46,066 bases of DNA from Streptomyces otsuchiensis (GTDB lineage: Bacteria; Actinomycetota; Actinomycetes; Streptomycetales; Streptomycetaceae), in assembly GCF_004305975.1 (NCBI RefSeq), contig NZ_BHZI01000007.1, positions 1-46,066 of the forward strand, given 5' to 3'. The position numbers and the translations under genes were made by a program. The notes under the pieces are model-generated. The model was not told the origin of the DNA. It did no database searches and worked only from the letters and a program-made list of their open reading frames with translations. Positions 19,372-32,895 of the stretch are shown piece by piece. Position 1 is the first letter of the stretch. Every line of letters starts with the position of its first letter.

Positions 19372-19539
19372 ATGGCAGCACCCCAGGAGTTCACCGAGCC
19401 GGTGACCGGGATCGACGCCTTCGACCTCGTCGTCGGTGAACTGGAGACCGAACTGCCCGAGGGGCAGACCACCTCCATGTTCTCGGTGGGTCACCCGGGC
19501 ACCTGCAGCAGCCACTACTGCTGCATCGCCGCAGTCTGA
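19372..19539 (+). CDS. RiPP precursor peptide, lanthipeptide-like
   Basis: A 55-residue peptide with the build of a ribosomal peptide precursor. The acidic leader (residues 1 to about 34) contains AFDLVVGELETELPEG, reminiscent of the FDL-type recognition motifs of class I lanthipeptide and thiazolylpeptide leaders. The Gly, Ser, Thr and Cys-rich C terminus includes SMFSVGHPG and TCSSHYCCIAAV, with three Cys (45, 50, 51) and candidate dehydration sites Thr33, Thr34, Ser35, Ser38, Thr44, Ser46 and Ser47. There is no obvious GG or GA cleavage site, so the leader/core boundary is uncertain. The ATG at 19372 follows GAGGAG by eight bases. It lies directly ahead of a LanM-type dehydratase. I do not recognise the core. 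Confidence 0.82.
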   Translation: MAAPQEFTEPVTGIDAFDLVVGELETELPEGQTTSMFSVGHPGTCSSHYCCIAAV

Positions 19540-19545
19540 ACCACC

Positions 19546-19576
19546 TCCGCGCCCGGGCGGTCCGCCCGGGCGCGGA
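19546..19576 (+). terminator. first hairpin after the precursor gene
   Basis: A perfect inverted repeat of 15 bases per arm (19546-19560 and 19562-19576) around a single base; sterically the loop would be at least three bases. It begins six bases after the precursor stop and is probably an attenuator or mRNA stabiliser. Confidence 0.7.
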
Positions 19577-19591
19577 CGCGGCGACGGACCA

Positions 19592-19622
19592 GGGGCCCCG
19601 GGCACGGCTGGCCCGGGGCCCC
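19592..19622 (+). terminator. second hairpin between precursor and dehydratase
   Basis: A perfect 12-bp GC stem, 19592-19603 with 19611-19622, and a 7-base loop. With the preceding hairpin it forms a tandem pair that should lower transcription of the enzymes relative to the precursor. Confidence 0.65.
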
Positions 19623-19747
19623 GCCGCCCACCCCGCAGCGCCGGCGGGACGAGGCCGGCCCGGCCCGGCCGTGCGGCGCCCCGGCGCCGACGCCCGCACC
19701 CGCGCCCCCGAGGCCGGAACATCCCCGCGACGTCACGGACCACGCGA

Positions 19748-21742
19748 ATGAACAACGCTCCCCACCCGCCCCTGCTCCGGCTTCCCGACGCGCCGGCCAC
19801 CGCACCCCGGCAGACCACTCCGGCCGGCGCGGCGCCCGGCCGGGTCAGCGCGCTCCGGCGCCTGACGGAGCTGGTGCGCACCTCGGGCGCGCCCGGCGCC
19901 ATCCCGCCCGTCCTCACCTCGGGCCCCGGCGGAATGCTCGTCCACGAAAGGGAGTTGACCGGACCGGACGAAGCGGCCGGGATCGGACTGCTGCTCGCCG
20001 GGGAACGGTTCGCACCGCTGCGTGCGGCGATCGACCGCTTCGACGGCTACTGCGCCCGCACCGCGCCCCGGCATTCCGCCGTCCTGGCGCCACACGTCCT
20101 CGACGTCACCGACACCGGACTGTTCGGCGCGGTCACCGGCGAGATCTTCGCGGCCTGCGCGGCGGGCGACCCCGGCACCGCCGCCCGCTACGCCGAGCAC
20201 CGCGCCGCCCAGTACTTGGCCTTCCTCGATCTCTTCCTGGACCGGCTGGGCCGTGACCTGGGCGCGCCGGGCTGGCCGTCCGGCGCCCGCTGGCAGGGCC
20301 CGGTCACCTCACTGTGGGCCAACGGCGAGGAGACCCACAACGGCGGGCAGCGGGTGCTGCGCGTCGGCCTCGCGGGCGGTGGCCACGCTGCCTACAAGCC
20401 GCGCCCCGCGACCGGGGAGGAGCTGCTCGTCGGCGAGGACGGCTCACTGTTCGCGCTGCTCACCTCCCTTCCCCCCGCCTCCGGTCCCGTCCGGCTGCCC
20501 ACCCTGCGCGTGTGGCACGGCACCGGCGACGCCTCCGGCCACAGCTGGCAGGAGTGGATCGACCCACCCGCCCAGCAGGGGACCCTGCGCGAGGAGAACG
20601 GCTGGCGGCTGACCGGCACCGTGCTGGAGCCGGCCGACGCCCGCCGCTTCTGGCACCGTGCCGGGGCCTTCGCGGCCACCGCGTTCGGCCTGGGCATCGC
20701 CGACCTCAACGGGGACAACGTGCTCGCCGGCGCCCGGCCCGGCGACGAACCGCTGCTGTACGCGGTGGACACCGAGGCGTACCTCGCCGGGCTGGGCGGG
20801 CTCACCGCCACCGGGCTGCTGCCCGACGCCGCCGACGACGCCTGGCACCACGTGGGCCTGGAGACCGACGCGCGCTGGTGCGCCCCGACCGGCCCGGTGC
20901 TGTACTGGCTCCGCGCGGACGACGGCGGGCTGGAGCTCCACCGTCGGCGCGGCGCGGTCGCCCGCACCTCCACCCGGTCGGTGGTCGGCGACACCACGGG
21001 CCGTACCGGGTACGCCGGTTACCTGCCGGCCCTGCTGCGCGGCATGTTCGACGGCTGGACCCATCTCGTCCGGCACCGCGACGCGGTGCGGGAGTTCATC
21101 GCCGACCGGGCGGCCGGCCAGTACGTACGGGTCATCCCCCGGCGGACCGCCCACTACGCGGGCGCGCTCGACGCCTGGCTCTGGCCGTCCGAAGCCCCCG
21201 GTGTGCCACCGGCCGCCGCGCCCGGGGCGCCGGACCGGGCACAGGCACCCTCTGCTGCGCCGGGCCCGTCCGGCACCTCCGGCGGCAGCCCGGTGTTCGG
21301 TCCCGACGAGCTGCGGCAGCTTCTCCGTGGCGACGTCCCGTACTTCTTCCGCAGCGCCGACGGCGGCCCGCTGCTGGCGATGGAGCCGCCCCCGGCCTCC
21401 TTCGACGTCCGGCCCGCCGATGTCGACTCCCCCTTCGCGAGCGTGCTGCCACCGGTCGCCTCCGTCGCCGGCGGCGACCGGCTGACCCTGGCCGGGCTCG
21501 GCATCGCGCTCCGGGACGCCGTCGAGCACGTACGGCACCAACTCCCCCACCTGGACGGTCACACGGTCATCGAGGAGCTCGGCCACGGGGTGCGCCTGGA
21601 GCTGCGTGGGCCGCAGCACGGCCAGGTCGCGTTCGACTGGCCGGCCGCCGGGCGTCGGATCACCTACCAGTGGGAACCGAACCGGCTGCGCCTGCGACTC
21701 GACACGCTCAGCCGCCCGACCGAGGAGGTCGCCACACCATGA
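19748..21742 (+). CDS. stand-alone LanM-type dehydratase (DUF4135), no cyclase domain
   Basis: A 664-residue enzyme corresponding to the N-terminal dehydratase half of class II lanthipeptide synthetases; expected to phosphorylate Ser/Thr of the precursor and eliminate phosphate to give dehydroamino acids. Family kinase residues are visible: ETH with H197, AAYKPR with K217 (the His to Lys spacing of 20 matches CylM), DLNGDNV with N324, and VDTEAY with D341 and E343. The elimination pair lies in VRVIPRRTAHY (R461 and T467). GDVPYFF near residue 530 is another family mark. The usual DLH motif reads DLN. The LanC cyclase domain (zinc ligands GxxH and CHG-type) is absent: the chain ends about 65 residues after the DUF4135 region. 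A frame extension upstream to 19436 was rejected. It overlaps the next gene by four bases. Confidence 0.85.
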   Translation: MNNAPHPPLLRLPDAPATAPRQTTPAGAAPGRVSALRRLTELVRTSGAPGAIPPVLTSGPGGMLVHERELTGPDEAAGIGLLLAGERFAPLRAAIDRFDGYCARTAPRHSAVLAPHVLDVTDTGLFGAVTGEIFAACAAGDPGTAARYAEHRAAQYLAFLDLFLDRLGRDLGAPGWPSGARWQGPVTSLWANGEETHNGGQRVLRVGLAGGGHAAYKPRPATGEELLVGEDGSLFALLTSLPPASGPVRLPTLRVWHGTGDASGHSWQEWIDPPAQQGTLREENGWRLTGTVLEPADARRFWHRAGAFAATAFGLGIADLNGDNVLAGARPGDEPLLYAVDTEAYLAGLGGLTATGLLPDAADDAWHHVGLETDARWCAPTGPVLYWLRADDGGLELHRRRGAVARTSTRSVVGDTTGRTGYAGYLPALLRGMFDGWTHLVRHRDAVREFIADRAAGQYVRVIPRRTAHYAGALDAWLWPSEAPGVPPAAAPGAPDRAQAPSAAPGPSGTSGGSPVFGPDELRQLLRGDVPYFFRSADGGPLLAMEPPPASFDVRPADVDSPFASVLPPVASVAGGDRLTLAGLGIALRDAVEHVRHQLPHLDGHTVIEELGHGVRLELRGPQHGQVAFDWPAAGRRITYQWEPNRLRLRLDTLSRPTEEVATP

Positions 21743-23082
21743 ACGCGACGACCGGCCCCAACCGCCCCGGCCACCGCGACGACGCGGTGCCCATCGCCGA
21801 AGCCGGTGCGCCCGCCGACGCGACCGCCGGCTCCGGCACGTCCACGGCGGCCGGGCGGGCACGGCTGCTCCGCCACCACTGGGGACGCGGACCCGAGGTG
21901 CTGGCCGTTCCCTCGGCCCTGTCGGCTGCGGACGCCCATCGCTGCGCCGTGACCGTCGGCGAACCGTTCCGGGACGGCACACAGGCCCATGTCCTCACCC
22001 GGGCGCGGTTCTTCACCACCGCCGGTCGCATCGTGGTACCCGGCCGGCTGCTGCCCGAGGACACCGACGACGACCACGCCCACTACCGCCGCCGCGTCAA
22101 CGAGCGTCTGAACGGCGCCGGCTGGCTGCTGACCCTGGAGAACCCCTTCACCCACGAGTACAGGTGGTGGTCGGCGGTCAGCGCCCAACTGCGCTCTATC
22201 TGGGACGAGGTGGGCCAGCCACCGCTGCCGGTCACCGCCGAGCTGACCGCCGGCGAGCGCTACCGGCGGACCACGGGCTTCCCGGGACCTCCCGGCTCCG
22301 CCGTCCTGTTGTGGGTGCTCGACGGCTCGCTGGACGTCGAGCTCCGGCGGGAGGACGAGGGCGAACGTCGGCCGGGCGCCGACGCACCGGCCACCGAGGA
22401 CCGCCCCCACCACCGGCTGCGCGGCGTGGCGGGTGAACTGCTGCACTGGCCGGCCGGGTACCGCTCCGAGGAACTGCACGGCGAGGGCTGCCGGACCCTG
22501 CGGGTCGCGGTCCCCGCCGGCGCGCGGGACGCCGAGGAGCTGCTGCGGGAGGTGCTGACCTGGGCCGCCGGAGAGCGGCGGCCCGACGAGGGCACCGGGG
22601 GCACCGTCCCGTTCGTCCACTTCCCCGCCGCCGCGGCCGACCCGGTGACCGTGCCCGAGGCGCTGACCGAAGCCGCCTCTCTGCTGCACGAACTCGCCGC
22701 CGGGCCGGACCTGGAACGGCTGCTGCGGCACCAGTGGGCGGCGCGCCGTTCGGCCGGGGGCCTGGAACCGCCCCCGCCCCCGGCCCGTGACTCCCCGCTG
22801 GACGAGGACACCCCGGTCCGCCGCATCGCGGAGATCATCCAACTCGCCGACGGCCCCGGCCGGAGCGTATGGGCGGTCAACGGCCACCTGCTCCCGCTCG
22901 GCGGTGGCACACCCGCGCGGCTCCACCACGAACTCGCCACCGCCCAGGGCCCGGTGACCGCACGCGAACTCGCCCAGCGGCTCGGCGCCCCGGCGGGCAG
23001 CACCGCCGTGCTGTCGCTGCTGCGCACCCTCCACCGGTTGCGTGCCCTCACCACCGACGATCAGCGGGGAGCCCTCCGATGA
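21739..23082 (+). CDS. JmjC/cupin-like protein A, metal ligands missing
   Basis: A 447-residue protein paralogous to the third cupin protein of the operon and more distantly to the JmjC enzyme between them. After about 40 disordered residues comes a cupin-like core with SAVLLWVLDGSLDVELR and GELLHWPAGYRSEELHG, aligning with the iron-site strands of the middle protein, but the HxD pair and the distal His are not present. The C terminus (about 330-447) contains WAARRSAGGLEP, ADGPGRSVWAVNGHLLPL and a winged-helix-like ARELAQRLGAPAGSTAVLSL, as in ribosomal-oxygenase-type JmjC proteins. It is probably a non-catalytic partner, perhaps for precursor binding; this is inference. ATGA overlaps link it on both sides. 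Confidence 0.65.
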   Translation: MNATTGPNRPGHRDDAVPIAEAGAPADATAGSGTSTAAGRARLLRHHWGRGPEVLAVPSALSAADAHRCAVTVGEPFRDGTQAHVLTRARFFTTAGRIVVPGRLLPEDTDDDHAHYRRRVNERLNGAGWLLTLENPFTHEYRWWSAVSAQLRSIWDEVGQPPLPVTAELTAGERYRRTTGFPGPPGSAVLLWVLDGSLDVELRREDEGERRPGADAPATEDRPHHRLRGVAGELLHWPAGYRSEELHGEGCRTLRVAVPAGARDAEELLREVLTWAAGERRPDEGTGGTVPFVHFPAAAADPVTVPEALTEAASLLHELAAGPDLERLLRHQWAARRSAGGLEPPPPPARDSPLDEDTPVRRIAEIIQLADGPGRSVWAVNGHLLPLGGGTPARLHHELATAQGPVTARELAQRLGAPAGSTAVLSLLRTLHRLRALTTDDQRGALR

Positions 23083-24359
23083 CGGTCACCACCGGCCCGC
23101 TCACCGTTCTCGGCGCCCTGGACTGGGACACCTTCGCGGCGCGGCACTGGGACCGGGGGCCGGTGCTGTTCAAGGGGGTGGCCAGCCCGCCGTTCACGCG
23201 CGACGAGGTGTTCGCGTGCGCCGTCGCCGCCTGCGAGGACGGCCGGGGTCACTCCATGCCGCCGGGGGTGGAGTTCGGCGTGGGCCGCAACCACCCCCTC
23301 TCCCCCATGGGCAGGCTGCCCCGCGCCGAGGACGGCTCCTGGGACGGCTACGCCCGGCGGATGCGGGACGAACTCCACGGTGAGCGACACTCGTTGGTGA
23401 TCTCCGGCTTCCACACGCACCACCATCCGCTCTGGCAGCGGGAACGCGCCTTCTACGCGGGGCTGTGGAGCCGGGTCGGGCAGCCGCTGACCGGCGCGAT
23501 CACCACCCTGTTCCACGGCAACTACAGCCACTCGCCGGTCGGCGTCCACAAGGACCGCTACGCCACGTTCATGTTCGCCCTCGAGGGCCGCAAGCGCATG
23601 CGGTTCTGGCACCGGCGGCCCTGGGAGCACCAGGTCTCCACGGTGGTCGACTACGAGCGCCACCTGCCGAGTTCGTTCACCGCGGAGGCCGAGCCCGGCG
23701 ACCTCTTGTACTGGCCCGCGTCGTACTACCACGTCGGTGAGAGCGACCTCTCCGACCGGCCCGCCATCAGCGTCAACATCGGTGTGCCGCGCGAGATCCC
23801 CTACTCCACCTTCTCCCTGCCCGACCTGCTGGCCCCGGCCCGCCAGGCATCGAGCCCGCCGGCCACCGCGCTTCATCAACCACCCGGCGGTGAGAACGAG
23901 TTGCCGCCGGTGCTGCGCGACGCCCTGGAGTCGGTCCGCCGGCTCACCGGCGAGCGCCAGGGACCGGACCGCCGCACGGCGCTCGCGCTGGAGTACGCCA
24001 CGGCCGGCGGGTTCCGCCCGGCCCCCGCGCCGGCCCCGGCGCCCGTCGCCCTGCCGGACCGCGCCGAGGTGTGCGCGCGGGAGCCGGTTCGCTGGGCGCG
24101 GGGCGGCCACTCCGTGCTGTGTGCAGCGAGCGGGCTGGTGACCGCCACCCGGCTGCCGCCCCCGGTGCTGGTGCGGCTGCTCGCCGCGCTCGAACCCGGC
24201 GCCGGGGTACGGCGGGTCGGCACCCTCCTCGACCTGGCTCCGGAGCACCGTGAGGACGCCCGCGCCCTGCTGCGGGTGCTGGTGGGGTTCCGCGCGCTGA
24301 CGGCCCTCGGCCCGCCGGGCACCGGAGACGGGGACGCCGCCACCCAGGCCGCCCCATGA
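23079..24359 (+). CDS. JmjC-domain iron/2-oxoglutarate oxygenase
   Basis: A 426-residue protein of the cupin_4/JmjC family (bacterial ribosomal oxygenase-like). The iron triad is visible: H157 and D159 in GVHKDRYATFMFALEG, and H218 in LLYWPASYYHVGE. Leu-Phe-His-Gly strands precede it and ISVNIGVP follows, completing the double-stranded beta helix. The C-terminal part (about 310-426) is a divergent version of the winged-helix-like domain seen in its two neighbours. Known members hydroxylate side chains in proteins; here the natural substrate would be the precursor peptide or its dehydrated form. It starts and ends at ATGA overlaps, between two metal-less homologues. Confidence 0.82.
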   Translation: MTVTTGPLTVLGALDWDTFAARHWDRGPVLFKGVASPPFTRDEVFACAVAACEDGRGHSMPPGVEFGVGRNHPLSPMGRLPRAEDGSWDGYARRMRDELHGERHSLVISGFHTHHHPLWQRERAFYAGLWSRVGQPLTGAITTLFHGNYSHSPVGVHKDRYATFMFALEGRKRMRFWHRRPWEHQVSTVVDYERHLPSSFTAEAEPGDLLYWPASYYHVGESDLSDRPAISVNIGVPREIPYSTFSLPDLLAPARQASSPPATALHQPPGGENELPPVLRDALESVRRLTGERQGPDRRTALALEYATAGGFRPAPAPAPAPVALPDRAEVCAREPVRWARGGHSVLCAASGLVTATRLPPPVLVRLLAALEPGAGVRRVGTLLDLAPEHREDARALLRVLVGFRALTALGPPGTGDGDAATQAAP

Positions 24360-25774
24360 CACCGGCCGGTCCGCCGTGCCCACGCGACGAACGCGAGCGC
24401 TGGGCACCGGTGGTGCGTGCCTGGGACCGGACACCGGCCCGACTCATGGGCGGCGCCGCCTCGTTGGGCGTCGAGGGGGTGTTCGCCGCGGCGGTCTCCG
24501 GCGCCCGCCGCTCCGCTTCGGCCCAGATCGGCCCGGCGGCGGCGCGCGCCGATTTCCACGCCGCGGACGGCATGGTGGAGGAGCCCGGCACACTCCTCCC
24601 GGGCGGCGGGGACCGGGGACCGCTCGGCTACGCCGAACGCGTGGACGGCGTCCTGGGAACGGGCACGGAGTGGCGGTGCGAGGTCCGGCACGCGCTGGGG
24701 CTGGATGTCGGGGCCTGGCGCGCGGTACGGCGGGCCCTGCGCGGGCTGTGGGAGTCGGTCGGGTGGCCGGCGCTGCCCCTGACGACCGAGATCGTCCTCG
24801 CGAACGGCACGGTCCGCTGCCACCGCGCGCTGCCGTCGGGCGAGGCGGTGCTGCTCTGGGTGGTGCGCGGCACGGTGACGGTGGAGTTCACCGACCCGGC
24901 GGAGACCGCGGCCCCTGGCCCCGGAACTCCACCGCAGACAGGGTCGGCGGGCGACCTGCTCTACCGACCCGCCGGGCTGCGCAACGCGGAGCGGTACGGA
25001 CCCGCCACCCTGGCACTGCGGCTTTCGCTCCCCGCCCAGTACCGGGCGGCACTGGCGGCGGTGAAGAACCAGTTGGGCGACCTCGCGGCCGCCACCACGG
25101 ACACGACGGGCACGGCGGACACGGCGGGCACCACGGACACGACCCCCGGACCTACCGCGATCGGCGAGCTGACCAAGGCGCTGGTCCACGGCGACGCGGT
25201 CGAGCGCACGCTACGGGCCCGGTGGGCGGCCCGGCGCTCGGCCGCAGGGCTGGAGCCCGCCCCGGCCCCCGCTCCCGCGTCCGGGCTGACCGCCGGCACC
25301 CCCGTGCGGCTGAGCGGCGAGATCGTGCACCTGGGCGACGGCCCCGGGCGCACCCTCTGGGCGGTCAACGGCCACCTCCTGCCGCTCAGCGGCCGCGTCC
25401 CCGCGCTGCTGCACCAGCGGCTGACGTCGGCCTCGGCTCCGGTCACGGCCCGCGAGCTGAACGAGACGCTGGGCGCGCCGCCGGGCAGCGCCGGAGTGCT
25501 GCCGCTGCTCCGGGCGCTGGACCGCCTGCGCGCGCTGACCGTCGCCCCGGGCGCCGCCGACACCCGGACGACGCGGTTGACGGCGGCACCGGCACGGGAG
25601 GTGACGCCCGGCCCGCCCACGCCGAACGCGTCACACGGCGCCTCCGCCCGGCTCCTCCGGCCGTCCTCCCGCCCACTGTGCGGGGAAGCCCTGCTGCTCA
25701 CGGCGCTGACGGCGTCGGCCCGGCCGCCGTCGCCCGGGGTGTGCGACCGGGCCGTCACCAGGGACACACCATGA
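24356..25774 (+). CDS. JmjC/cupin-like protein C, metal ligands missing
   Basis: A 472-residue paralogue of protein A: shared blocks are EAVLLWVVRGTVTVEF, GDLLYRPAGLRNAERYG, RARWAARRSAAGLEP and GDGPGRTLWAVNGHLLPL, followed by the winged-helix-like ARELNETLGAPPGSAGVLPL. Neither the HxD pair nor the distal His of the JmjC iron site is found at the equivalent strands. A Thr/Gly/Ala linker with repeated TDTT and TADTAG units lies near residues 243-264. The last 80 residues are low-complexity. It may form a hetero-complex with the active oxygenase; the function is unknown. It is coupled to the flanking genes by ATGA overlaps. Confidence 0.62.
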   Translation: MTPAGPPCPRDERERWAPVVRAWDRTPARLMGGAASLGVEGVFAAAVSGARRSASAQIGPAAARADFHAADGMVEEPGTLLPGGGDRGPLGYAERVDGVLGTGTEWRCEVRHALGLDVGAWRAVRRALRGLWESVGWPALPLTTEIVLANGTVRCHRALPSGEAVLLWVVRGTVTVEFTDPAETAAPGPGTPPQTGSAGDLLYRPAGLRNAERYGPATLALRLSLPAQYRAALAAVKNQLGDLAAATTDTTGTADTAGTTDTTPGPTAIGELTKALVHGDAVERTLRARWAARRSAAGLEPAPAPAPASGLTAGTPVRLSGEIVHLGDGPGRTLWAVNGHLLPLSGRVPALLHQRLTSASAPVTARELNETLGAPPGSAGVLPLLRALDRLRALTVAPGAADTRTTRLTAAPAREVTPGPPTPNASHGASARLLRPSSRPLCGEALLLTALTASARPPSPGVCDRAVTRDTP

Positions 25775-26313
25775 CCACCAGCAGCACCACCTCCGCGGGG
25801 CGCCGCGTGCACACCGTGACGGACAGCCCCTGCGGTCCGCTGACGCTCGTCGCCGAGGACGGCCGGCTCGTCGGCCTCTACATGGAACGGCAGCTCTACC
25901 GTCCCTCCGAGGAGCTCTTCGGTGCACCGGACACGCGGCCGTTCCACCGGGCGCGGGAGCAGCTGGAGGAGTACTTCGCGGGGCGCCGCACCGTCTTCGA
26001 CCTGCCGCTCGGCCTGCGGGGTACGCCGTTCCAGCGCACGGTGTGGGAGGCGCTGCTGGAGATCCCGTACGGGCGGACCGTCTCCTACGGGCAGCTCGCG
26101 GAGCGGATCGGACGGCCGACCGCCGCGCGGGCCGTGGGACTGGCCAACGGCAGGAACCCGATCGGCGTCATCGTCCCGTGCCACCGGGTCGTGGGCGCGC
26201 GTGGAGACCTGACCGGTTACGGAGGCGGGATGGCGCGCAAGCGGCGACTGCTGGAGCTCGAACGCGCCGGCTCCGTGCGGCCCGAGCGGCCCGGGGCCGA
26301 CGCCACTCGGTGA
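25771..26313 (+). CDS. ogt: methylated-DNA--protein-cysteine S-methyltransferase
   Basis: A 180-residue suicide repair protein that transfers alkyl groups from O6-alkylguanine in DNA to its own cysteine. The active site PCHRV carries C137, preceded by GNGRNPIGVIV-type sequence (ANGRNPIGVIVPCHRVVG spans the loop) and the helix-turn-helix segment YGQLAERIGRPTAARAVG. Family length is normal. The ATG lies inside the stop of the preceding cupin gene (4-nt overlap), so it is the last gene of the RiPP operon. A DNA-repair gene there may be self-protection against an alkylating product, or may simply be a captured housekeeping gene. A strong terminator follows. Confidence 0.93.
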   Translation: MTTSSTTSAGRRVHTVTDSPCGPLTLVAEDGRLVGLYMERQLYRPSEELFGAPDTRPFHRAREQLEEYFAGRRTVFDLPLGLRGTPFQRTVWEALLEIPYGRTVSYGQLAERIGRPTAARAVGLANGRNPIGVIVPCHRVVGARGDLTGYGGGMARKRRLLELERAGSVRPERPGADATR

Positions 26314-30772: not shown

Positions 30773-30912
30773 GGTGTGCCTCGTTCCGGTCGTTCAGGTG
30801 AGCGGCCGGTCCGGCGGCGGTGCCGTCGGCCGGTGTCTCCACCCTCGGGCCGCCGGATGAGCGTTCGATGAGCGAGCGTGCCGCGGACGGGCACGGGAAG
30901 GCGGCCGCGGAC

Positions 30913-32895
30913 ATGGGCGTGGAGTTCGGGGTGCTGGGGGCGGTCACCGCCTGGGACGGCGACGGCAGGCCACTGGCCCTGCGCGGCCCCAGGCACCGCG
31001 CCGTGCTGGCCCGGCTGATCGTGGCCCGGCGCCGCGTCGTGCCCGTCGCCCGTCTGGTGGCGGACCTGTGGGACGAGCCGCCCAGCGACGCCGTCGGCGC
31101 GGTCCGTACCTTCGTCTCGGCGCTCCGCAGGTCGCTGGAGCCCGGCCGGCCGCCGCGGGCACCGGCCCGCCTGCTGGTCACCGAGGGCCCCGGATACGCC
31201 CTGCGGGCCGGGGTGGACGAGGTCGACGCCTGGTGGTTCGAGCAGGTGACCCGCGACGTGGAGGACGCGCCGCCCGGGCTGGTCGCCGCCCGCCTAGGCG
31301 AAGCACTCGAGCGGTGGCGTGGCCCCGCCTACGCCGACTTCGGCGACTCCGCCTGGGCCCGCCCTGACCGCTCCAGGCTGACCGACCTGCGCCTGCACGC
31401 GGTCGAGCGGTACGCGGAGGCCCGCGTCACGCTGGGGTCCGCGGCCGAGGTGGCGGCCGAGCTGGACGCGCATGTGGCCGAGCACCCCTGGCGCGAGGAG
31501 GGCTGGCGGCTGCTCGCCCTGGCCCTCTACCGCGCGGGCAGGCAGGCCGACGCGCTCTCGGTCTCCCGCCGGGCGCGGACGATGCTCCGCGAGGAACTGG
31601 GAGTGGACCCCGGCCCCCGGCTGCGCCGCCTGGAGGAGGACGTTCTGCGGCAGGCGGACCACCTGGGCCCGGGCGGCGACACGACGGACCGGGTATGGGC
31701 CGAGGCGACCGCCGCCTACGAGAGGGCGGTCGCGCCCCGTGCGGGCACCAGGCTGGAGTCCACCGCCGGGCTGATGCGGGATCTCGCCGTCACCGGCGGC
31801 GGCGGGCTGGAGTCGGCACGCAGGCACCGGGTGGCGGCGGTCGCGGCGGCGGAACGGCTCGGTGACCCGGAGCTGACCGCACGGGTCATCGGCGTCTACG
31901 ACGTGCCCGCCGTCTGGACCCGCTCCGACGATCCGGAACAGGCCCGGTGGCTGGTCGGCGTGGCCGACCGCACCCTGAGGCAGCTGCCGGCCACGGGGCA
32001 CGAGGCGGCCAGGTGCCGACTGCTGGCCACCGTGGCCGTCGAGTCACGGGGCACCCCTCCTCCGGGGGCCGACCCCGCGGGCACCGGCGCGCGTGCACGG
32101 CGGGCGGCCAGGCAGGCCGAGCAGCTGGCCCGCGGCCTGGACGACGCGGCGCTGCTGGCCTACGCGCTCAACGGCACCTACCTCCAGACCTTCACCAGGA
32201 CGGGGCTGGCGGCCCGGCGCGACGCGATCGGCGCAGAGGTACTGGAGCTCGCGGAACGCAACGGCCTGGCCCGGTACGCGGTCCTGGGTCACCTGGTGCG
32301 CGTCCAGGCGCGGTGCGCGCTGGCGGACCTCGCCGGAGCGGACCGGCACGCCGGAGCGGCCGACGAGCTGGCACTGCGGCACGAGCTGCCGCTGGTCGGC
32401 GTCTTCACCGGCTGGTACCGAGCGCTGCGCACGGCTGTCCGGGAACCGCCCGAGGCGGCACAGGCGGCGTACCGGCGGGCGGCCGAGCCGCTGAAGGACG
32501 CGGGCATGCCCGGGGTCCGGGAGGGGCTGCTTCCGCTGGCCCTGCTGAGCGTCGACGTGTTGCACGGGCGGCCCGTCGTCGCCGACAGCGACGCGTGCTG
32601 GGGGCCGTACGAGCCGTGGGTGCGTCCCCTGCTGCTGGCGTCCGAGGGACGGACCGATACCGCGCGTGAGGCGTTGCGTGGGGTTGCCGCACCGCCGGGA
32701 GATCTCCTCACCGAGGTCCTGTGGTCGCTGCTCGGGCGGGCGGCCCTGCTGGTGGGCGACCGCGCCACCGCTCGGCGCGCCGTGGAGAGCCTGCGGCCGG
32801 CGGCGGCCGAGCACGCGGCCGGTAGCGGCATGATCACCCTGGGCCCGGTAGGCCAACAGCTGCGGGATCTGGAAGCACTTGCCGACGGCCGGTGA
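30913..32895 (+). CDS. SARP/BTAD-family transcriptional regulator
   Basis: A DNA-binding activator of the AfsR/SARP type, about 660 residues. The N terminus MGVEFGVLGAVTAWDGDGRP leads into an OmpR-like winged helix (HRAVLARLIVARRRVVPVARLVADLWDE region, about residues 25-95), followed by the bacterial transcriptional activation domain (about 105-250: DAWWFEQVTRDVEDAP, then WREEGWRLLALALYRAGRQ and LREELGVDPGPRLRRLEE). The remaining 400 residues are helical, TPR-like, without a visible NB-ARC P-loop. The ATG at 30913 has GGAAGG 11 bases upstream; ATG 30868 and GTG 30820 are alternatives. It is divergent from the broken hydrolase gene, which it may control. Confidence 0.85.
   Translation: MGVEFGVLGAVTAWDGDGRPLALRGPRHRAVLARLIVARRRVVPVARLVADLWDEPPSDAVGAVRTFVSALRRSLEPGRPPRAPARLLVTEGPGYALRAGVDEVDAWWFEQVTRDVEDAPPGLVAARLGEALERWRGPAYADFGDSAWARPDRSRLTDLRLHAVERYAEARVTLGSAAEVAAELDAHVAEHPWREEGWRLLALALYRAGRQADALSVSRRARTMLREELGVDPGPRLRRLEEDVLRQADHLGPGGDTTDRVWAEATAAYERAVAPRAGTRLESTAGLMRDLAVTGGGGLESARRHRVAAVAAAERLGDPELTARVIGVYDVPAVWTRSDDPEQARWLVGVADRTLRQLPATGHEAARCRLLATVAVESRGTPPPGADPAGTGARARRAARQAEQLARGLDDAALLAYALNGTYLQTFTRTGLAARRDAIGAEVLELAERNGLARYAVLGHLVRVQARCALADLAGADRHAGAADELALRHELPLVGVFTGWYRALRTAVREPPEAAQAAYRRAAEPLKDAGMPGVREGLLPLALLSVDVLHGRPVVADSDACWGPYEPWVRPLLLASEGRTDTAREALRGVAAPPGDLLTEVLWSLLGRAALLVGDRATARRAVESLRPAAAEHAAGSGMITLGPVGQQLRDLEALADGR

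Follow-up and report, generated by a model that had tools for sequence, protein, structure and literature searches.

A probable ribosomal peptide pathway built around a DUF4135 dehydratase, a JmjC oxygenase and a triad-less cupin protein in Streptomyces otsuchiensis and distantly related bacteria

The hydroxylation of a core peptide by JmjC or cupin-like proteins has precedents among the ribosomally synthesised and post-translationally modified peptides (RiPPs), namely BipG and PbsQ, as passages of two papers describe (PMC12707348, PMC12257519). For the class II lanthipeptide enzyme CylM, passages of PMC4550811 set out the roles of the residues that are compared below, except Glu366. Here we analyse an operon in which enzymes of these two types stand side by side. 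It lies in a stretch of 46,066 nucleotides from Streptomyces otsuchiensis (assembly GCF_004305975.1, contig NZ_BHZI01000007.1, positions 1 to 46,066), hereafter the window, and consists of six genes, all on the forward strand, which encode a 55-residue precursor followed by five enzyme-side proteins. Because distantly related bacteria also carry the core genes, together with the same unusual C-terminal peptide sequence, the cluster appears to represent a natural product family of peptides that has not been described before. The literature searched, with most subscription journals outside its scope, held no report of a pathway combining DUF4135 with JmjC/cupin proteins, in line with a preliminary description of this DNA, which had called the set undescribed; as far as this search goes, the domains are known, and the novelty lies in the precursor family, the pairing and the motif.

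We explain the cluster as a whole, with a rough probability of 0.6, by a RiPP pathway whose conserved core comprises three modification proteins; that it is a RiPP pathway of some kind is very probable. The conserved order is precursor, DUF4135 dehydratase without a LanC domain, a cupin protein without an iron triad (cupin1) and JmjC oxygenase. It was the same in 24 of 24 clusters, a recurrence that places the layout in the window beyond chance. Two of these clusters are in the source genome and others in the same genus, in another genus of the family and in another family of the order; the named hosts also include Streptomyces palmae, Nonomuraea gerenzanensis and, from another phylum, Lysobacter antibioticus. 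Together they yielded 26 precursors, 23 of them different, which share one core motif. Gene order and precursor are thus not peculiar to one strain, and the RiPP operon proposed in the preliminary description is supported. Judging from the sequence, the product would most likely be a peptide dehydrated at an invariant Ser/Thr and oxygenated, perhaps on an invariant Tyr. Along the window, the operon is arranged as follows.

19372 to 19539, forward strand: precursor gene, 55 residues (leader part FDLVVGELETELPEG, core part ending GTCSSHYCCIAAV), with an ATG start, GAGGAG upstream, and a leader and core common to the precursors of 23 other clusters.
About 19546 to 19576 and 19592 to 19622, forward strand: two GC-rich RNA hairpins between the precursor and the enzyme genes, from folding against shuffles.
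19748 to 21742, forward strand: DUF4135 (LanM-type) dehydratase without a LanC domain, 664 residues, without the DUF6624-containing C-terminal part found in relatives.
21739 to 23082, forward strand: cupin1, a ribosomal-oxygenase-like protein without the iron triad and with a predicted C-terminal winged domain, 447 residues.
23079 to 24359, forward strand: JmjC Fe(II)/2-oxoglutarate oxygenase of the ribosomal-oxygenase type, 426 residues, ligands H157, D159 and H218.
24356 to 25774, forward strand: cupin3, a second triad-less paralogue of cupin1, 472 residues, seen in the window cluster only.
25771 to 26313, forward strand: Ogt-type methylguanine-DNA methyltransferase, 180 residues, joined by an overlap and not conserved in the cluster family.

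The coordinates confirm the earlier account of a six-gene, one-strand operon with ATGA junctions, and place 4-nt ATGA overlaps at all four junctions among the last five genes (DUF4135, cupin1, JmjC, cupin3 and Ogt). Across the family, 23 of 24 clusters keep a 4-nt overlap between DUF4135 and cupin1, and 22 keep one between cupin1 and JmjC, in a count where one cluster (L003) was not followed by the script and the overlap of another (L107) is a single base. The six genes do not hold as a unit, contrary to what had been claimed: of the 24 clusters, only that of the window showed Ogt and the third cupin, and both genes appear to be local additions to it. With Pfam, the operon gave DUF4135 at 81 bits, JmjC_2 at 30 bits in the JmjC protein only, and Ogt domains at 125 and 44 bits, which bears out the earlier assignment of the last gene to a DNA-repair methyltransferase. 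No Pfam family exceeded its cut-off in cupin1 or cupin3.

In all 24 clusters the precursors end with the core [ST]-C-x(3-5)-Y-C plus 1-5 residues. Of the 26 precursors, 16 have Thr and 10 have Ser directly before the motif's first Cys, and the spacing is 3 in 20, 4 in 5 and 5 in 1. The precursors were collected with this core pattern itself, within 1.5 kb upstream, so that Tyr and the two Cys were required in advance; for this reason, the firmness of the precursor assignment comes from a six-frame control and from the leader. In the control, which covered 422,455 bases of the 24 loci, the core pattern ended 26 open reading frames (ORFs), all such precursors, and no other ORF end in those bases fitted it. 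A leader motif of the FDLVIGELE type, under the loose pattern [FL]-[DE]-L-[VT]-[IV]-G-[DEN]-L-E, is present in 25 of the 26, the exception being one of the two Lysobacter precursors; a separate scan for the leader motif listed 22 of the precursors. Two clusters carry two precursors each, namely L112 and that of Lysobacter antibioticus (L005, 5600-6700), where one is without the usual leader motif. The window precursor matched no Pfam or NCBIfam model, as would befit a small ORF that is not a precursor at all. The probability of that reading is negligible, given that the same leader and core motif stand upstream of DUF4135 in 24 of 24 clusters and that the core pattern ends no other ORF there.

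The distribution of the family was followed with two profiles. The JmjC profile matched 27 of 392 same-genus genomes, 14 of them with the full cluster (the source genome twice), a count that leaves out five matched genomes (G086, G088, G138, G175 and G368); the other same-genus matches were five aldehyde-dehydrogenase-type pairs (L049-L052, L054), two radical SAM loci (L055, L117) and the unassigned L053. It matched 1 of 396 genomes in the phylum sample, namely the source genome itself, and 14 of 293 in the order sample, with members in a further genus of the family and in a further family. Of these 14, one (G312) belongs to the aldehyde-dehydrogenase type and another, L116 (G849), is fragmentary, neither holding the RiPP cluster so far as visible; a third, L113 (G791), is truncated at the start of its contig and stands outside the 24. 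The S. palmae and L. antibioticus clusters came from a species-level genome scan, and that of N. gerenzanensis from a plasmid collection in which its 11.9 Mb record is filed. With the dehydratase profile, all seven matches that span the DUF4135 part (E up to 1e-25) in 199 genus genomes sit in clusters with a JmjC gene, and the remaining matches in those genomes covered only the C-terminal DUF6624 part. The second cluster of the source genome, on contig C158 (L003), has the order precursor, DUF4135 with DUF6624, cupin1 and JmjC. Its proteins are 46-47% (JmjC and DUF4135) and 41% (cupin1) identical to those of the window, and the two precursors have the leader and the core end in common. The 24 clusters are not independent, since the 13 rows with a LanC gene form one clade with many near-copies. 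On the JmjC tree, the Lysobacter protein groups inside the actinobacterial rows, with a Shimodaira-Hasegawa-like approximate likelihood ratio test (SH-aLRT) value of 98 and a long branch.

Seven of the eight CylM residues compared are invariant in the DUF4135 proteins, the position of His349 being the exception. The equivalents of Lys274, Asp347, Asn352, Arg506 and Thr512 are found in 24 of 24 clusters in the printed alignment, and those of Asp364 and Glu366, placed outside that alignment by a conserved D-x-E, are likewise present in 24 of 24. In addition, His254 has its equivalent in 23 of the 23 rows with letters there; Glu366 is compared for the role that we presume it to have in CylM. Neither the window protein nor its C158 paralogue shows a LanC-like domain by Pfam; the cyclase-less LanM described earlier is supported as a dehydratase of the class II type. 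DUF4135 is the only domain found in the window protein; in the C158 paralogue it is joined by DUF6624, the source genome's only match to that family. This C-terminal part aligned in 16 of the 17 rows of the dehydratase alignment and was recognised as DUF6624 by Pfam in one member scanned. Within the literature searched, DUF6624 is named in one paper only; it is suspected elsewhere of being an undiscovered RiPP enzyme, according to a passage of PMC13097080.

The iron ligands H157, D159 and H218 are invariant in 24 of 24 JmjC proteins, and the JmjC profile finds YcfD and NO66. In an alignment of these remote paralogues, none of the 24 cupin1 rows has all three ligands and two rows have two; taken singly, the first His is kept in 2, the Asp in 1 and the distal His in 16. 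The triad positions of cupin3, which is 42% identical to cupin1 over 355 aligned positions, are occupied by L, S and N. Thus, among the three JmjC/cupin proteins announced earlier, one is indeed an enzyme with the JmjC iron triad, whereas the other two are triad-less relatives. Cupin1 is a conserved neighbour of the JmjC enzyme and probably its partner. When the cupin1 model was compared by Foldseek, the 30 best matches were all ribosomal oxygenases (YcfD-like, NO66 and MINA53), including one titled FLJ14393 which we take to be MINA53. Both proteins end with a predicted domain of three strands (JmjC) or four strands (cupin1) followed by three helices, with a predicted local distance difference test score (pLDDT) of 34-88 and 61-86, respectively, over this block in models that are weak as a whole. 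The strand-then-helix order would correspond to that of the winged domain (beta3-alpha3) resembling the RiPP recognition element, as defined in passages of PMC12710340.

In the mechanism that we propose, the winged domains of the JmjC/cupin1 pair would bind the leader motif. DUF4135 would phosphorylate and then eliminate the invariant Ser/Thr before the core Cys, giving dehydroalanine or dehydrobutyrine (Dha/Dhb), and this dehydration appears likely. The JmjC enzyme, paired with cupin1, would hydroxylate the core, for which the invariant Tyr is the best candidate; whether the oxidation would be a hydroxylation rather than another one is an even call. The Cys after Tyr could then add to Dha/Dhb without LanC in a substrate-controlled ring, or the two Cys could form a disulfide, a thioether ring in the LanC-less members being slightly more doubtful than the hydroxylation. 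In the LanC-containing subtype, the added LanC would close further thioether rings through two extra Cys.

A LanC-like gene comes next after JmjC in 13 of the 24 clusters by phmmer, with Pfam checks in L038, L039, L042, L107, L109 and L111. It is absent from nine, and its status is not visible in L005 and L115, the contigs of which end inside JmjC; the JmjC tree count took both as LanC-less. All 13 LanC-containing clusters have four Cys per core (NSGSGT[AS]CG[TS]CA..YCC or near), the window core has three, and each precursor of the remaining ten clusters has two. On the JmjC tree, a quick one with long branches flagged for L003, the window, L114, L005 and L004, the LanC-containing rows form one clade (SH-aLRT 100) among LanC-less lineages. 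Consequently, LanC together with the four-Cys core represents one acquisition and not a repeated correlation, and LanC looks added, not lost. This pattern argues that the DUF4135/JmjC core is independent of LanC and that LanC would serve the extra Cys. In one cluster, the LanC homologue was called as two pieces (L110:3922-5014), with a gene interruption or a sequence error as possible causes.

A thioether ring in the LanC-less clusters would need either substrate control or LanC in trans. The cluster could also be read as a class II lanthipeptide pathway, with a cyclase acting in trans or with substrate-controlled closure, where JmjC adds a hydroxyl only. The LanC gene of the 13 clusters, the LanC-like matches at five places on other contigs of the source genome and the substrate-controlled lanthionine formation reported for rosins (PMC12291118) are all compatible with it. 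Nevertheless, we find it doubtful: the window DUF4135 protein reaches 39 bits with the LanM model of NCBIfam (the C158 protein 32 bits) against a cut-off of 304, and the LanC clade is surrounded by LanC-less lineages in the tree. More tentatively than the proposed pathway itself, we suggest that the core [ST]-C-x(3-5)-Y-C may mark out a separate class of RiPPs. In such a class, an oxidised C-terminal ring would be built without LanC by a LanM-type dehydratase, whether or not it carries DUF6624, acting together with a two-subunit enzyme that resembles the ribosomal oxygenases. The two subunits would be the catalytic JmjC protein and the triad-less partner carrying the leader-binding domain, and lanthionine chemistry would have been added later, once, in one clade through a LanC gene and a four-Cys core.

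Several observations weigh against the proposed pathway. As regards the dehydratase, none of the 24 proteins has His at the position of CylM His349 in the kinase DxH motif (I in 16, G in 5, N in 2 and T in 1), the position of Asp252 is Glu in 23 of 23, and the window protein, as assembled, is without the DUF6624 part. In a passage of PMC4550811, the H349A variant of CylM is left with a small amount of dehydration. The earlier statement that the enzyme keeps its phosphorylation and elimination residues therefore stands for most positions and fails at those of His349 and Asp252. The changed DxH His, together with the C-terminal part of DUF6624 type in relatives, would suit a peptide kinase or an otherwise changed enzyme, which would perform no dehydration and whose phosphate or other activation would be used by the oxygenase pair. 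This is quite improbable, since all 24 proteins keep the equivalents of Arg506 and Thr512, elimination residues that a pure kinase would not need.

As regards the oxygenase, the structure models are weak (mean pLDDT 51 and 34, the latter for JmjC from a two-row alignment), the top 30 Foldseek matches have low TM-scores (0.17-0.25), and the Tyr as target is a guess from conservation, Tyr being in the collection pattern. Furthermore, 22 clusters can be read downstream of JmjC, and 9 of these have no LanC gene. This absence would also agree with an oxidative cross-link, in which the JmjC pair links a core Cys with Tyr (or carries out an oxidation of Cys or of the backbone) and DUF4135 prepares the neighbouring Dha/Dhb, so that rings would form by oxidation and require no LanC. 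The two Cys and the Tyr do occur in fixed order in 26 of 26 precursors, again as part of the collection pattern, and a conserved enzyme with a triad-less partner suggests more than simple tailoring. However, the related enzymes (the YcfD/NO66 family, BipG and PbsQ) hydroxylate, and the literature searched gave no precedent of JmjC cross-linking, no search being aimed at that question alone; such a cross-link is unlikely. Finally, no clear peptide exporter or leader peptidase was found among the selected neighbouring genes scanned.

The Ogt gene could be taken for a working member of the pathway, for example in self-protection against an alkylating product, as it shares an ATGA overlap with cupin3 and the source genome has three Ogt matches, this one included. 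We rejected this very unlikely possibility: Ogt occurs in 1 of 24 clusters, that of the window, and the protein is 60-68% identical to the Ogts of ten examined relatives, in every one of which the gene adjoins an Ada-AlkA gene (domains checked in one). When the window proteins were compared with the Ogt loci of these ten relatives, Ogt matched in 10 of 10, along with two weak (27-29%) ABC ATPase matches, and no flanks were shared. The window Ogt is the source genome's closest relative of the AlkA-linked repair gene of other genus members, and it was first suspected to be this genome's displaced AlkA-linked gene. However, the one AlkA match of the genome (C153) already has an adjoining Ogt on the opposite strand, 49% identical to that of the window, so that relocation and transfer are not separable. 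Ogt is probably a passenger in the operon.

The precursor stop and the DUF4135 start are separated by 208 very GC-rich nucleotides (19540-19747) with two hairpins, whose fold has a z of -4.1 and was equalled in stability by 0 of 200 shuffles. Spacers were folded in seven clusters, and all have a hairpin 3' of the precursor (z -1.6 to -5.9). The fold lies well beyond shuffles in four (the window, L036, L039 and L114) and is weaker in L037, L043 and L003, where 18, 11 and 6 of 200 shuffles, respectively, matched it. It is possible that the hairpins would suit the production of more precursor than enzyme. A promoter and terminator scan gave nothing above shuffles. An Opp-type peptide transporter is encoded upstream of the operon and a purple-acid-phosphatase-like protein downstream on the other strand. 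A few kb downstream, at 30868-32892 of the window, lies a gene for a BTAD-domain (SARP type) transcriptional regulator, which might regulate a nearby cluster.

Some loci outside the family also came to light. The five aldehyde-dehydrogenase-type loci (L049-L052, L054) carry cupin1 and JmjC pairs without DUF4135, adjoining an aldehyde dehydrogenase gene in 5 of 5; on the tree, they form a sister group to the JmjC proteins of the RiPP clusters. Precursor-like ORFs were sought upstream of cupin1 in the DUF4135-less pairs and none was found in L049-L054. At the two radical SAM loci (L055:8160-12032 and L117:5570-9464), a distant JmjC relative stands by a 776-residue radical SAM/B12-binding protein and a 50-residue ORF, an arrangement resembling another RiPP-type locus. 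On a plasmid of Streptomyces sp. BB1-1-1 (L108, 6920-8245), a distant cupin protein (30%) is annotated near an amidinotransferase and a DUF3865 protein, in a different pathway. Lastly, upstream of the second precursor of the source genome, an open frame at the end of contig C158 (P0011, 8277-8969, minus strand) matches cupin3 weakly (E 0.013).

If the proposed pathway is true, it defines a peptide family that LanC-based mining misses where LanC is absent, and its LanC-containing clusters may have been counted as class II; the mining in the passages of PMC7268733 did start from LanC-domain proteins. A dehydratase accompanied by a JmjC enzyme and its triad-less twin would offer a test of how a protein-hydroxylase fold is recruited and of cyclase-free ring formation, for which the 24 clusters and their shared motif provide ready substrates and mutants. 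The fusion of DUF6624 to the dehydratase would likewise be a route to the function of DUF6624.

Compared with described systems, the cluster resembles each in part. With the ribosomal oxygenases YcfD, NO66 and MINA53, it shares the family of JmjC (by profile) and cupin1 (by model) and, as predicted, a C-terminal winged domain; those enzymes act on ribosomal proteins, whereas here an enzyme and a triad-less paralogue are in an operon with a precursor. The biphenomycin-type hydroxylases BipG/BpmG and PbsQ likewise bring a JmjC or cupin-like enzyme to a RiPP core; in the passages of PMC12707348 and PMC12257519, however, the context is one of MNIO, B12 radical SAM and arginase proteins, the target is Orn in an FRF motif, and neither a DUF4135 dehydratase nor a triad-less partner is named. 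The dehydrazoles (LanMbC with YcaO, carnazolamide; passages of PMC10676384) provide a case of DUF4135 dehydration in a RiPP without lanthionine rings, but their DUF4135 is fused to a cyclase-like domain of class III type and works with YcaO. The operon has neither, YcaO having no Pfam match among its six proteins, to which that search was confined. Class V lanthipeptides of the rosin type, where substrate-controlled lanthionine formation is sped up by a kinase-lyase pair, provide a model for LanC-less closure, although their enzymes (PMC12291118) are RosK and RosY, plus the AviMeCys cyclase RosX. Class II lanthipeptides (LanM, CylM) have in common with the cluster a DUF4135 protein with most of the kinase and elimination residues compared, a core with Ser/Thr and Cys and an expected dehydration. 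The present clusters differ from them by a dehydratase without a LanC domain and with a changed DxH His, by the DUF6624 part in relatives, by a constant JmjC pair and by a different precursor family.

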